Part shown: positions 4,843 through 11,956 of the stretch, piece after piece | How the letters are laid out: each line of letters opens with the position of its first letter | Numbering within the stretch: the first letter of the stretch is position 1 | Origin: Candidatus Mediterraneibacter gallistercoris | GTDB taxonomy: Bacteria; Bacillota_A; Clostridia; Lachnospirales; Lachnospiraceae | Assembly (NCBI GenBank): GCA_019119745.1 | Contig: DWWI01000065.1 | Location: 1 to 11,956 of the forward strand | Length of the DNA stretch: 11,956 bases | Reading direction: 5' to 3' | Position numbers and translations under genes: made by a program | The notes under the pieces: generated by a model | Database searches by the model: none | What the model was told of the DNA's origin: nothing | What the model saw: the letters and a program-made list of their open reading frames with translations, nothing else

Positions 4843-5005
4843 TACAGAATAAAAATGTTTGTAATGCCTTATGATCCCCGTGCATAAGCGGATGTTGTTA
4901 TTGATATTTTTACTTGCATAACATTTAGCTTATAGGAATAAACGATGTACACGCTTTGTCAGAGAGTCATTTAAGAAGGCAGATGGAATGGAGGTATATT
5001 GTATT

Positions 5006-5425
5006 ATGAAGAAAAGATGGGGAACACCAAAAGCAATTGTAGAAGAATTTGAGCCAAACGAGTATGTAGCGGTGTGTTGGGGCGTGCAATGTGATGTTGA
5101 TTGGGCGAATCGATATGAATGGCTGCAAGGAGATTACAATGAAGGAGTAACCCACGCATGGGATCACTGTGGCACTTCGTCAAATCAGGTGATTCGTATA
5201 GATAAAGATGGTAATCCGACAGAAATGGTTGAAACAGGAACAGATGGTTTAGGAGATTTAAGTTGTATCATTTACTGGAATGATAATTATACAAAGCGAA
5301 GAGATGTTAAAACGGTGGGAATAGGAGATACTATTTATTGGACTACAAGCGCCGCCGACGGCAGAACATGGAATCATAAGGGGACAGTCTTCGGAACAGC
5401 TGAAGGCCATCCGAATCGTTCCTGA
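5006..5425 (+). CDS. Putative RiPP precursor peptide A
   Basis: The product has 139 residues. I do not recognise a named family. The first 24 residues align without gaps to those of the protein encoded at 7137. The shared positions are Met1, Lys3, Thr7-Pro8, Glu13, Phe15, Asn18, Tyr20, Ala22 and Cys24, with conservative Trp/Tyr at 5 and Val/Ile at 21. Beyond Cys24 the two diverge completely, which suggests leader plus core. The C-terminal part is rich in Trp (33, 39, 52, 91, 112, 122), Gly, Asp and Asn, with Cys at 24, 29, 55 and 87. There is no signal peptide, membrane segment or double-glycine site. The frame is open back to an ATG at 4988, but GGAGG at 4990-4994 and the leader alignment choose 5006. 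The gene is more AT-rich than its flanks. The precursor role is inferred from context; it is long for a RiPP precursor. Confidence 0.75.
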   Translation: MKKRWGTPKAIVEEFEPNEYVAVCWGVQCDVDWANRYEWLQGDYNEGVTHAWDHCGTSSNQVIRIDKDGNPTEMVETGTDGLGDLSCIIYWNDNYTKRRDVKTVGIGDTIYWTTSAADGRTWNHKGTVFGTAEGHPNRS

Positions 5426-7136: not shown

Positions 7137-7571
7137 ATGAGAAAGAGTTATGCAACACCACAGATGTATGCTGAGAGTTTTGTGGCAAATCAGTATATAG
7201 CAGCTTGCCAGGAGCCGATTTATAATGTAACACCTACGGACGTTCGTTGTATGAGTCCGGGACATGATCAAACACAGGTTAATGTGATGTTTCTTGATAG
7301 TCAGGATGCTTGTATCGCAAAATTTAATCCTGGAGTAGGCGAAGGACACGGGGATAGATTTTATACGCAGTTTGAGGCTTGTGCTTATGTGCAGGGATGT
7401 AACAGACAGAAATGGATGGCGGCCCATCCTGGGGACACGGATTTAAGCCAGCATGGGAGTGAACATGGCAGTAGAGGCGTGTTTATGATCGGGTGTAGAG
7501 CGCCAGGCGAATTTATTATGCATGATACTGTGATTGATTTGAGCCTTGCAGAAAAGTATCAGTTGTCATAA
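7137..7571 (+). CDS. Putative RiPP precursor peptide B
   Basis: The product has 144 residues and is unrecognised outside this locus. Its first 24 residues match the leader of precursor A without gaps: Thr7-Pro8, Glu13, Phe15, Asn18, Tyr20, Ala22, Cys24. The remaining 120 residues are unrelated to precursor A. They contain Cys at 38, 59, 82, 88 and 120, repeated Gly-His pairs (42-43, 70-71) and a Gly/His/Ser patch near 105-112. No signal peptide, transmembrane helix or double-glycine site is present. The start is supported by GTGAGGG at 7124-7130. It sits at the head of cassette B under its own promoter. By inference it is the substrate of the radical SAM and kinase-like enzymes downstream. 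A structural protein with a shared targeting segment is an alternative. Confidence 0.72.
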   Translation: MRKSYATPQMYAESFVANQYIAACQEPIYNVTPTDVRCMSPGHDQTQVNVMFLDSQDACIAKFNPGVGEGHGDRFYTQFEACAYVQGCNRQKWMAAHPGDTDLSQHGSEHGSRGVFMIGCRAPGEFIMHDTVIDLSLAEKYQLS

Positions 7572-7604: not shown

Positions 7605-7634
7605 TAGAGTCCAGAGTATATGCTCTGGACTCTA
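7605..7634 (+). terminator. 12-bp perfect hairpin after precursor B (attenuator or mRNA stabiliser)
   Basis: The arms at 7605-7616 and 7623-7634 are exact reverse complements with a 6-nt loop. A run of five T residues appears only about 15 nt later (7649-7653), so termination is doubtful. The position between precursor and first enzyme mirrors the attenuator at 5471-5501 in cassette A. It may stabilise the precursor mRNA or mark a processing site. Confidence 0.55.
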
Positions 7635-7678: not shown

Positions 7679-7856
7679 ATGGAATACTATTTTAAAATTG
7701 CAGGGATTAAGATTAGGGTTGATACGGATACTGTGTTTGACTGGAATCCGCATATAAAGACGTTTGAGACGGCTGCTTTTGAACAGGCGAATGAGGTATA
7801 TAGCATCAGAATGACAGACGACCTGCATAAACCGGACGGCGAGATTGTATATCAGG
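7679..7856 (+). CDS. HPr-kinase-like P-loop protein 1, exon 1 (gene split by group II intron)
   Basis: This is the N-terminal 59 codons plus the first base of codon 60. MEYYFKIAGIKIRV aligns with MDSIFQIGDFTFRL of the paralogue at 10733, and YSIRMTDDL with YNIIVSDDL. The frame is open upstream to 7598, but the ATG at 7679 fits the paralogue start and follows GGCGGGG at about 7668-7674. Without splicing, translation runs into the intron and stops at 7871-7873, giving a 64-residue fragment without the P-loop. Joined to 8631-9316 it gives one 287-residue protein. Confidence 0.75.
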
Positions 7857-8630
7857 GTGCGACCTGTTCCTGACTGAAAAGGTCAGGCACCTTATATCTG
7901 AGCATTTTCGGAAAAGATGACAGAGAGGAATATTCAGATATACGGTGAAGCGGCAGCTCGAAGAGCGGAATGAAGGGGTAACGCCCGGAAACGCTCTCTT
8001 TGATACTCCGACTGGCATGCGTAAGTGAAAACTGGTATGTCAGAAGCTCGGTAAAGTCGGCAGAAGTGATCCTGAGGCAGAAAATGCCGGAAGGTAGGGC
8101 TATGGATGATGATATGCCGGAAGTCTATAAAACTCCTATGGTCAGTATGCCGTAAGGCGGACGAACCTGTGGTCTAAAGGGTCTTAAATACAGCTGTATG
8201 GAAACATACAGATCAGAAAAACGGTTTCGGCGGTGGATGAGTAAGAAGCCTGGTTATGAAAGTCCATGGTATGTTACAGGCATACCCTTGCCGGAAGGCC
8301 CATAGCAGGGACCTAAGGGAGTATATGTACAGATAGAGCTGCTGAAACAGGGAAAAGTATCGGGTCTTTGTGAAACATTTGCAGTTCATGAAGATAATCT
8401 GACGAAAGATGATAAGCAGATGAACCGGTGCCGAAAAGCAGTGGTCGAACCGGTGAAGCCCCTGCAATGGGGGCGGAGGGATGGCCACAAGTCGGATGAT
8501 GGTGTTTCCCATGGAGAATTTAATGGATAATGCCGGCATTCGATGGAACGCGGTATGCGGGGAAACCCGCACGTACCGTGTGGAGTGGGGGAAAAGCCGG
8601 AGATGAGATCAAAGGTTTACCTATCACTAT
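7857..8630 (+). mobile_element. Group II intron without an encoded reverse transcriptase, inserted in the HPr-kinase-like gene
   Basis: The 774-nt element begins with GTGCGAC (group II consensus GUGYG) and ends in CTATCACTAT, with the expected AY terminal dinucleotide. A domain V of exactly 34 nt lies at 8548-8581, followed by a domain VI-like segment with a candidate branch-point A at 8623, seven nt before the end. A domain I hairpin (CCTGAC with GTCAGG) starts 12 nt in. Possible exon-binding pairs are CCTGA (8071-8075) with exon TCAGG (7852-7856), and TATAC (7939-7943) with GTATA (7847-7851); these are tentative. No reverse-transcriptase ORF is present, so splicing and mobility probably need a maturase from elsewhere. 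Excision joins G at 7856 to AT at 8631 and restores the frame. The subclass was not determined. Confidence 0.88.
8548..8581 (+). ncRNA. Group II intron domain V catalytic hairpin
   Basis: The lower stem pairs ACGCGGTA (8548-8555) with TACCGTGT (8574-8581), eight pairs with one G-U. The upper stem pairs TGCGGG (8556-8561) with CCCGCA (8566-8571) around a GAAA tetraloop, with a two-nt CG bulge at 8572-8573. The CGC of the lower 5' strand (8549-8551) sits where the catalytic triad belongs. Size, bulge and tetraloop all match canonical domain V. Confidence 0.92.
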
Positions 8631-9316
8631 ATCATTTTGTTCAGGTTTATTGGGACAGAAGTCAGAATAAAGAGATGAGGTTTCATTATTTTCTGGGGTT
8701 TGAGGAACCTTGTATGCTGTATGAAGAGTCAGAAACGGGGATGAAGACTGTTTATCTGAACAGAAAATATGAATCCGCTCTTTTGAATACAGGAAATTAT
8801 AAGATATTTAACGCACTGGCGCTGGAAAAGGTGCTGATCGCACACGAAAGCATCATATTGCATGCTTCCTATGTGAATTATAACGGAAAGGCTATTCTGT
8901 TTACTGCTCCTTCGGGTACGGGCAAGTCTACTCAGGCCGCACTGTGGGAAGAGTACAAGGGCGCAGAGATTGTAAACGGCGACAGAGTGATCATCCGGGA
9001 AGGAGCGGAAGGTTTTGAGGCATACGGCATACCGGTATGCGGTTCTTCCGATATCTGTCTTAACCGGACGCTGCCGATCGCGGCGATCGTCTATCTGCAG
9101 CAGGGAACGGAGAATCATATACAGCTGATGCGTTTTGCCGAGAGGGTAAAGAGTCTTATAAGTGAGACGACGATCAGTTTTTTCGACCAAGAGTTTGTGG
9201 AACAGGCACTCGAGGTCCTTCAGCGTCTCGGGGCACAGGTTCCGTGTTACTACTATTCGTGCACGAAGGACGAAGATGCTGTAATAAAATTATATGATAC
9301 ATTAGAGGAGAATTGA
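8631..9316 (+). CDS. HPr-kinase-like P-loop protein 1, exon 2
   Basis: This carries the rest of the 287-residue spliced product (residues 60-287). A P-loop APSGTGKST lies at residues 152-160, preceded by ILHASYVNYNGKAILFT as in HPr-kinase/phosphorylase-type folds, and VNGDR follows with a likely metal-binding Asp. It aligns throughout with the protein at 10733-11650. HPr-kinase homologues in lasso-peptide clusters phosphorylate the peptide, so a peptide-kinase role is plausible but unproven here. The frame is open to 8543, but those codons lie in intron domains V and VI; a start at 8603 would be an intron artefact. The gene ends one nt before the next ATG, so it is tightly coupled to the radical SAM gene. 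Function depends on splicing; without it this part lacks its N-terminus. Confidence 0.82.
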
Positions 9317-10732: not shown

Positions 10733-11650
10733 ATGGACAGCATATTTCAGATCGGAGATTTTACATTTCGTCTCTGGTGCCCGCCGGAAGTGACACCTCC
10801 GGAAAATTTTATGAAATTTGAAAGCAGTATGGGAACTCATTTAGCGCGGACACAGGAAACACCGGAATATACATATAATATAATAGTGTCAGACGATCTC
10901 CCTCAGGTAGAGGGCAAGATCATCGCCCAGCGTCCGGATCTCACTGTATTCCGCCGTGAGACGGAACAGGGTGAGAACCTTGAGAGCCGCCTGATCGGAG
11001 TGAAGGGGAATCCTGAGTATTACGCCTGCTACCGGGAAATGTCCGGCAACCGCGCGGAGGTTACCCTTGTCCGTGACCGGATCGCGGAGCTGCATATCGA
11101 TCCGATGTTCACATCCCTTCTTGCCCTTGAACGCCGGCTGGTGAAGAAGGACAGCATGATCCTTCACTGCGCTTATGTGGAATATCAGGGAGAGGCAATC
11201 CTCTTCTCCGCTCCGTCGGAGACAGGCAAGACAACTCAGGCAAACCTGTGGGAGAAGTACCGTGGGAGCCGGACGGTCAACGGCGACCGTTCCCTTCTGG
11301 GGAAGATTGACGGCAGGTGGACAGCTCAGGGCTGGCCGGTGTGCGGTACGTCTGAGGTGTGCAATAATGAAGCAATCCCGATAAAGGCTGTCGTGATGCT
11401 CAGTCAGGCAAAGGAGAATGCAGTAGAGAGGCTGACTCCCGGCCATGCATTCCCGCTTTTATACAGCCAGATCACAGTGAACAAATGGAATACTCCGGAT
11501 CATATCCATATCATGGATCTGATCGAGGATTTCCTCGGAAGCGTGCCCGTACTCCATCTCGGATGCACGATCTCAGAGGAGGCTGTGGCCTGTCTGGAAG
11601 AAGCCCTGAGAGGGCTGGACAGGGAAACTTTGCCTGATCAGGACGCTTGA
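10733..11650 (+). CDS. HPr-kinase-like P-loop protein 2
   Basis: The product has 305 residues. It is the intact paralogue of the split gene at 7679-9316 and shares its N-terminal strand pattern, ILHCAYVEYQGEAILFS before the P-loop, VNGDR (182-186) after it, and WPVCGTSEVC. The P-loop reads APSETGKTT (160-168), with Glu where protein 1 and typical HPr-kinase relatives have Gly. This may alter nucleotide binding or be tolerated. The ATG at 10733 is preferred over the adjacent 10730 because GAGAGG (10721-10726) is then well spaced. In annotation such proteins are often labelled HPr kinase or PEP-carboxykinase-like. A peptide-phosphorylating role is inferred from lasso-peptide kinases. Two copies in one cassette suggest either different substrates or a heteromeric pair. 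Confidence 0.82.
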   Translation: MDSIFQIGDFTFRLWCPPEVTPPENFMKFESSMGTHLARTQETPEYTYNIIVSDDLPQVEGKIIAQRPDLTVFRRETEQGENLESRLIGVKGNPEYYACYREMSGNRAEVTLVRDRIAELHIDPMFTSLLALERRLVKKDSMILHCAYVEYQGEAILFSAPSETGKTTQANLWEKYRGSRTVNGDRSLLGKIDGRWTAQGWPVCGTSEVCNNEAIPIKAVVMLSQAKENAVERLTPGHAFPLLYSQITVNKWNTPDHIHIMDLIEDFLGSVPVLHLGCTISEEAVACLEEALRGLDRETLPDQDA

Positions 11651-11736: not shown

Positions 11737-11956
11737 ATGAACGAAGAAAATCAGAATGAAAATAAGAATCCCGCCTTTGAATCTCTGGATATCCTGATAG
11801 CCAGATGGAAAGACGGGACTTTTGGTGAGATCATAGATGACTGGAAGTGGATCTTCAGTTACAGCGCAAGATATAAAGGTGCTATTGTTTTTTATGTGAT
11901 CCTCGGTATCTTCAGTACATCCATGGGGCTGGTCAGCAGTGTGGCGAGCAAATACA
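11737..11956 (+). CDS. ABC transporter ATP-binding/permease protein, N-terminus (3' end outside window)
   Basis: Seventy-three codons are visible before the window ends. After a polar Asn/Glu-rich start comes DDWKWIFSYSARYKG, then a hydrophobic segment (AIVFYVILGIFSTSMGLV) that is the first transmembrane helix, a pattern typical of half-size exporters with fused membrane and ATPase domains. The nucleotide-binding domain is not visible, so the call rests on this N-terminal pattern. GGGAG at 11725-11729 fits the ATG. No peptidase C39 domain precedes the membrane part, consistent with precursors that lack double-glycine sites. It is probably the export pump of the pathway; leader removal must be done by something not seen here. 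Confidence 0.65.
   Translation, partial: MNEENQNENKNPAFESLDILIARWKDGTFGEIIDDWKWIFSYSARYKGAIVFYVILGIFSTSMGLVSSVASKY

Follow-up and report, generated by a model that had tools for sequence, protein, structure and literature searches.

This locus raises the question of how a kinase gene that is interrupted by 774 nt can still give a complete protein. We analyzed the window (the whole stretch of 11,956 nucleotides), on the forward strand of which the kinase exons, the intron with its parts, and the paralogue are located. Exon 1 of the HprK-like kinase gene occupies positions 7679 to 7856 (codons 1 to 59 and the first base of codon 60). Exon 2, assigned from its reading frame and dN/dS, occupies positions 8631 to 9316 and contains the P-loop SGTGKST. 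An uninterrupted paralogous kinase gene, recognized by alignment to the spliced product, is located at 10733 to 11650. The first-pass annotation had proposed that an ORF-less group II intron splits the gene, and the stretch between the exons (7857 to 8630) is, by the sequence tests described below, a complete ORF-less group II intron.

A covariance search of Rfam using cmscan, suggested as a check at first pass, gave two group II matches above their gathering scores. RF02004, which covers the conserved 5′ part of the intron, matched 7945 to 8131 with 130.2 bits (gathering score 34.5, E = 5.4e-29), and RF00029 matched 8546 to 8630 with 59.6 bits (gathering score 40, E = 6.4e-10). The intron begins with GTGCG at 7857, a GUGYG-type end, and finishes with CACTAT at 8630, where the AT at 8629 to 8630 fits the AY rule. 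Domain V (34 nt, 8548 to 8581) is identical in the window and in two related loci, L001 and L002. Both ends and domain V are exactly where the first-pass annotation had placed them. The bulged adenine of domain VI (A8623, base 8 counted from the intron 3′ end) is unpaired in the Rfam and RNAalifold structures and is the predicted branch point. No reverse transcriptase (RT) or maturase frame was found within the 774 nt; the longest stop-to-stop frame was 74 codons in the sense direction and 131 codons in the antisense direction. The two Rfam matches and the 74-codon maximum bear out the proposal of an ORF-less intron. Judged from these frames, the kinase intron is not a mobile retroelement.

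Removal of the 774 nt joins 178 and 686 nt into an 864-nt frame of 287 amino acids and a stop codon. The product aligned with the paralogue at 10733 to 11650 (34% over 248 aa, 1e-44) without a gap at the junction, in agreement with the earlier claim that exact excision restores a 287-residue frame collinear with that paralogue. The junction is CAG G|AT in phase 1. It had been described as Gln-Gly/Asp; the spliced message reads Gln-Asp, and Gln-Gly arises only in the unspliced reading. Mechanical ORF calling gives a frame of 257 aa (8543 to 9316), which runs from an ATG just 5′ of domain V into exon 2 and is of the kind listed for relatives. This ORF is probably an annotation artefact or an unspliced by-product.

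To locate the exon-binding sequences, we took 19 related introns whose boundaries were known, aligned their 5′ parts, and looked for columns complementary to each intron's own exon. The set comprised 20 introns, 19 of them aligned, with one of the two L102 introns missing; L101, which lacks a domain I match, was left out, as were L090, L097–L100, L106, L108–L110, and one L087 end, for which no 5′ end was obtained. In the window, IBS1 (ATCAGG, 7851 to 7856) pairs with EBS1 (CCTGGT, 8249 to 8254) at 6/6 positions including one G.U, and IBS2 (TGTAT, 7846 to 7850) pairs with EBS2 (ATACA, 8188 to 8192). Mean complementarity over the 19 introns was 5.63/6 for the EBS1 window (best of 20 permutations, 3.68) and 4.74/5 for the EBS2 window (permutation best, 3.16). 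Recognition of the 3′ exon by EBS3-IBS3 is described for IIB and IIC introns in the part of a review used here (PMC4424553). The candidate EBS3, T8303, is complementary to the first base of exon 2, A8631; its column complements that base in 17/19 introns (next best column, 74%), with the window and L001 fitting and L002 and L094 misfitting. The IBS2 of L002 carries a T-to-C change that is compensated by A-to-G in EBS2, so that the first pair is C-G. The same IBS2 change in L001 is uncompensated and leaves a C.A mismatch at the first EBS2/IBS2 pair. Only 1 of the last 12 positions of exon 1 varies, compared with 64/166 in the remainder, as expected for binding sites.

One scan of genome contigs using the exon-2 protein identified two relatives: L001, in a MAG titled Lachnoclostridium, and L002, in a MAG titled Fusicatenibacter. 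In both, the intron (9235 to 9998 in L001; 2401 to 3114 in L002) is inserted at the identical nucleotide and the splice junction is exactly that of the window. Thus, the junction match in relatives that the first-pass annotation had named as a comparison was obtained. A search of approximately 5.8 billion proteins using the exon-2 protein gave 2065 matches, of which the best 120 were examined. Among these, 14 were close homologues (77–98% identity), and 12 of the 14 start with the translated intron end (..MRGN..VPC.VGEK..YLSLY); P0013 and P0014 start within exon 2 and are thus silent on the intron. From P0015 onward, still within the best 120 of 2065, identity was at most 56% and length 265–363 aa; 16 of the proteins P0015 to P0120 were read, all 16 with an uninterrupted N-terminus, and the remainder were judged by length. 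An exon-1 query, in a length-limited search with intron-free full-length proteins outside its reach, gave 10 matches, including the window's own (P0121); all 10 read on into the intron from one shared codon (VYQGATCS). All 22 informative predicted proteins are halves of 64–91 or 253–277 aa, so such genes will be missed unless introns are sought, which is a warning for annotation.

A kinase tree of 122 tips, with the window's paralogue as root, placed the 15 tips that bear the intron in one clade with no intron-free member, at modest support (79.1/93, read after re-rooting). These tips are the 12 proteins, the window, L001, and L002, and they partly overlap: P0010 is possibly the same locus as L001, P0012 the same as L002, and P0001 and P0002 the same as the window. 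Intron DNA at the kinase site comes from three sequences, the other carriers being known by their predicted proteins alone. In overlapping family and genus draws of 397, 58, 7, 395, and 378 genomes, the only carriers found were G001 and G002 (in the 395-genome draw two candidate stretches were scored per genome; the 378-genome draw had a strict cut-off and gave only G002). The other kinase matches in the 397-, 58-, and 7-genome draws did not exceed 49% identity, and the highest-ranking ones fall within open frames of ~285–340 aa, uninterrupted as judged by length. No intron-free orthologue of high identity was found in these searches, the uninterrupted homologues read being at most 56% identical.

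It had been suggested that the intron could be a recent arrival. This reading is rejected, since the site is identical in both MAG loci and in every one of the 12 close exon-2 homologues that could be judged, and since synonymous divergence among the three loci is near saturation. The intron is apparently one insertion retained across several lineages, and the bacteria seem to have kept it for long instead of losing it. The same pattern could arise without vertical inheritance, if the operon moved horizontally or if an RT acting in trans promoted repeated homing. A close copy borne by a plasmid or phage was considered and rejected: blastn gave only partial matches, which covered no more than 49% of the intron for plasmids (294 records) and no more than 71% for phage-labelled records (10 records), and a scan of viral contigs gave no match. 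Exon 2 had three plasmid and two phage-record matches, at no more than 35% identity.

The introns of the three loci differ at 16.6% (window-L001), 19.7% (window-L002), and 18.2% (L001-L002) of aligned sites, with 12, 60, and 52 gap columns excluded, respectively; the L002 intron is 60 nt shorter than that of the window, and indels are outside these figures. Fourfold-degenerate sites of the kinase gene differ by 51.6%, 62.0%, and 60.8% for the same pairs, and those of the neighbouring genes by 51–72%. The dN/dS ratios (Nei-Gojobori; window, L001, and L002), which are rough as dS is partly near saturation, were 0.10–0.23 for exon 1 and 0.05–0.11 for exon 2. The consensus fold of the three introns contains 221 pairs, of which 27 (26 by one count) changed on both sides yet were kept; shuffles gave 11.9 ± 2.5, with 0/500 as high. 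In this fold 97.7% of cells pair, compared with 37–40% when the partners were slid; the fold was built from the same three sequences on which it was tested, which favours it. The low divergence of the intron relative to fourfold sites, together with the 27 kept double-change pairs, indicates that splicing has probably been under selection.

We looked for the origin of the intron among 395 relatives, 57 of which had an intron match. Apart from G002's own copy, the best matches were introns in G164 (L088, G164:C136; 2696 nt, RT frame broken) and G204 (L089, G204:C141; 3036 nt, RT frame intact). Both interrupt dnaE at Ile-Val-Tyr-Gln codons, being inserted after ATTGTGTATCAAG and ATTGTCTATCAGG, with exon 2 beginning AACAAGTTATG and AACAGGTTATG, respectively. 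The kinase site, ATTGTATATCAGG|ATCATTTTG, matches the dnaE sites in these four codons and in phase. We built an IQ-TREE phylogeny from the 5′ regions of 21 introns picked by similarity to the kinase intron (midpoint root; L085 used in this tree only). A split supported at 100/100 separates the kinase and dnaE introns from the 16 others; support was 99.8/100 for the three kinase introns and 99.7/100 for the two dnaE introns. Among the three kinase introns, those of the window and L001 group at 88.8/94, matching the exon distances. When the root lies among the other introns, the kinase and dnaE introns are sisters. The nearest kin of the kinase intron are thus maturase-encoding dnaE introns at the same motif, which suggests ectopic homing followed by ORF loss. 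The kinase site is a near copy of the dnaE site, so the intron would most simply have reached it by ectopic insertion via the same exon-binding sequences and then lost its ORF; the direction would have been from dnaE to the kinase gene. The dnaE genes of G001 and G002 themselves are uninterrupted, as judged by open-frame length (770 and 1168 aa).

Loss of the stop codon in domain V was considered as a further link to the dnaE introns and given little weight, as L087, L101, and one L102 intron also lack that stop, with different codons. Separately, two short introns, L086 1212 to 2008 (797 nt) and L104 (G121:C17; 757 nt), belong to the same family and are too small for an RT. Their insertion site is common to RT-sized introns in L093 and L096, from which ORF loss seems to have occurred more than once in this family. 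By eye, the host of the L086 and L104 introns looks like a conjugative element.

The protein encoded by the split gene was considered from the AlphaFold2 model of an intact homologue, P0021 (pLDDT 94.0), which shows an N-terminal beta domain followed by the kinase core. In a Foldseek search of this model against PDB, all of the best 50 matches were PEPCK or HPr kinase/phosphatase (E = 2e-6 to 1e-4, probability 1.00), and the superposition was loose (TM by target at most 0.58 in these 50). With an HprK/PEPCK-type core and a P-loop, the split gene product is predicted to be an HPr kinase/PEPCK-fold kinase. The junction codon 60 corresponds to P0021 residue 59, between strands 54–58 and 62–67. 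A 257-aa product of the unspliced frame would therefore begin without the opening strands of the beta domain. In the G002 genome, the split gene is the only kinase of its family found (E 1e-3); therefore, no paralogue of that kind can cover for it there.

The neighbourhood looks like a peptide-modification locus, as judged by its gene content. A nucleotidyltransferase (PF14907, NTP_transf_5), two radical SAM genes, and two PqqD genes exceed the Pfam cut-offs, and the locus also contains two kinases, two small ORFs of 144–145 aa, and the beginning of another gene, at 11737. No NCBIfam model for the locus enzymes reaches its cut-off. The small ORFs (4988 to 5425, 145 aa; 7137 to 7571, 144 aa) gave no family match in Pfam or NCBIfam. 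They are candidate precursor proteins, and by eye both have the leader-like start K-x-[WY]-x-T-P ... E-x-F-x-x-N-x-Y-[VI]-A-x-C. In all three loci, a strong hairpin with the core AGAGTCCAGAG / CTCTGGACTCT lies in the gap that separates the second small ORF from the split kinase gene (window 7605 to 7634; L001 8982 to 9011; L002 2142 to 2189). Its arms in L002 are a perfect 21 bp, and the window hairpin is not directly followed by a T-run; it may stabilise or process the upstream mRNA. L002 391 to 5409 holds an abridged form of the locus, in which the window's first radical SAM gene and second kinase have only 40–41% identity matches. These matches fall at the positions of the second radical SAM gene and the split kinase gene.

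A joint account of these results, which we consider likely to be correct, is that an ORF-less intron derived from dnaE splices itself from the operon mRNA to give the 287-aa HprK-like kinase. Its ancestor would be a maturase-encoding lineage homing into dnaE, whose exon-binding sequences allowed ectopic insertion at the look-alike kinase site; the inserted intron would then have lost its ORF. The intron RNA would fold, pair its EBS sequences with the exons, and excise itself in cis from the operon transcript. We infer that the intron splices in this way in the cell, needing either no dedicated maturase or help from a host factor. Self-splicing in cis, with the full kinase being made, is the most likely outcome.

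The best-surviving alternative, which we regard as possible and on the unlikely side, is that splicing requires a maturase provided by a different group II intron in that cell, which would make the kinase dependent on this element for its expression. According to a 2015 review (PMC4424553), nearly all known ORF-less introns of bacteria occur in genomes that also contain related IEP-bearing introns, and IEP-bearing relatives of the kinase intron do exist in G164 and G204. Of 195 relatives of G001, 50 exceeded the group II RT cut-off and 107 gave some match; these figures speak for available helpers and equally show that absence of the RT is common in the group. Against a helper, no related RT was found in either carrier MAG. 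TIGR04416 gave no match over the cut-off in the draft genomes G001 and G002, PF00078 gave no RT match in the G001 draft, and the RT of the G204 dnaE intron, used as the query, matched G204 and G164 and nothing in G001 or G002. PF00078 detected one distant 346-aa RT in G002, which reached 81 bits against the TIGR04416 cut-off of 300. The sole RF00029 match in each carrier MAG was the kinase intron itself (150 of 251 and 150 of 292 candidates scored). PF08388 was set aside as a poor RT test, since it misses the dnaE-intron RTs of G164 and G204. The absence of an RT is suggestive and not decisive, as both genomes are metagenome drafts and MAGs can lose repeats. The maturase in trans that the first-pass annotation had envisaged is so far unsupported in these two drafts, and self-splicing in cis remains our preferred reading.

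A further alternative is that intron retention works as a switch that gates the peptide pathway, with the spliced mRNA giving the full kinase and the unspliced mRNA giving an N-terminally shortened kinase or none. The chimeric frame is open in the carriers examined, and on this ground gating by splicing is possible; the intron also persists without an encoded mobility protein, and in Clostridium tetani several products arise from an ORF-less intron, as far as the portion of that report used here describes it (PMC3919590). However, the open frame may stem from conservation of domains V and VI and the GAT junction codon, and both dnaE introns keep this frame open through domain V and close it only at the exon junction. 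The same portion of the C. tetani report gives no clear regulation of the splice forms (PMC3919590). We therefore consider a switch improbable.

It is very improbable that the intron is inactive, with unspliced mRNA giving the functional protein as a 257-aa product from ATG 8543. In favour of this reading, the frame leading into exon 2 is open in the window, L001, and L002 from this ATG or its counterpart. The 12/12 informative protein clusters (best 120 of 2065) keep it open at least from the MRGN codons onward, whereas 17/18 other introns carry a stop in the counterpart frame (one L102 copy does not). Against it, exon 1 is constrained at the dN/dS given above and kept in all of its protein matches, its part corresponds to the first strands of the N-terminal beta domain in the homologue model, and the binding sites, domain V, and domain VI are intact. 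A pseudogene is likewise disfavoured by the dN/dS of both exons and the intact splice elements.

We compared the locus and its intron with known systems. SynChlorMet ScmC and HprK-related kinase A resemble the split kinase in weak exon-2 matches and in the neighbouring radical SAM and PqqD genes. The exon-2 part scored 30.3 bits with TIGR04249 (cut-off 125) and 26.4 bits with TIGR04352 (cut-off 200), and the paralogue scored 32.1 bits with TIGR04249 (cut-off 125). Membership in either kinase family was rejected, as these scores are far under the curated cut-offs. Among introns, the dnaE introns of G164 and G204 share the site motif, the phase, and EBS1 at the same alignment column with the kinase introns, and differ in their length, RT frame, and host gene. 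ORF-less introns served in trans by a related IEP were shown in a cyanobacterium, according to the part of the review cited (PMC4424553); these are ORF-less ribozymes like the kinase intron, for which no related IEP was found in the two carrier MAGs.

The closest bacterial parallel is C.te.I1 of C. tetani, the only case that the 2015 review gives of a bacterial ORF-less intron in a genome lacking an IEP (PMC4424553). Like the kinase intron, C.te.I1 is ORF-less, lies in a protein gene, and has the GUGCG boundary motif, as described in the part of the report used (PMC3919590). That part places no IEP elsewhere in the C. tetani genome, whereas for the kinase intron the absence of an RT concerns two draft MAGs only. 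In C.te.I1 the 5′ splice site is displaced 8 nt upstream and four 3′ exons serve as alternatives (PMC3919590), whereas the kinase intron fits the canonical site with one 3′ exon. The kinase intron, in contrast to C.te.I1 as described there, is common to 12 homologue clusters at one site. In the open-access literature searched, we found no description of an ORF-less intron that several bacterial lineages keep at a single site. What is unusual here is the combination: an ORF-less intron, with no related RT found, apparently from one insertion and kept across several lineages. Such a case offers natural replicates for loss of intron mobility, persistence, and splicing without an own protein, a step proposed toward organelle and spliceosomal introns.

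Plant organelle ORF-less group II introns, as far as the cited part of the review covers them (PMC4424553), are like the kinase intron splicing-only, fixed in their gene, and inherited with it. They differ in that the kinase intron is bacterial, with no known splicing factors and a host gene not known to be essential. A tentative, rather doubtful extension of this likeness is that the kinase intron is a lineage-wide, organelle-like, splicing-only intron, fixed in one gene of a peptide pathway in hosts that have no RT and selected since its removal, whether or not retention is regulated, sets the amount of kinase. If so, the pattern that bacterial ORF-less introns live beside a helper maturase would have a second exception, this one replicated in evolution.
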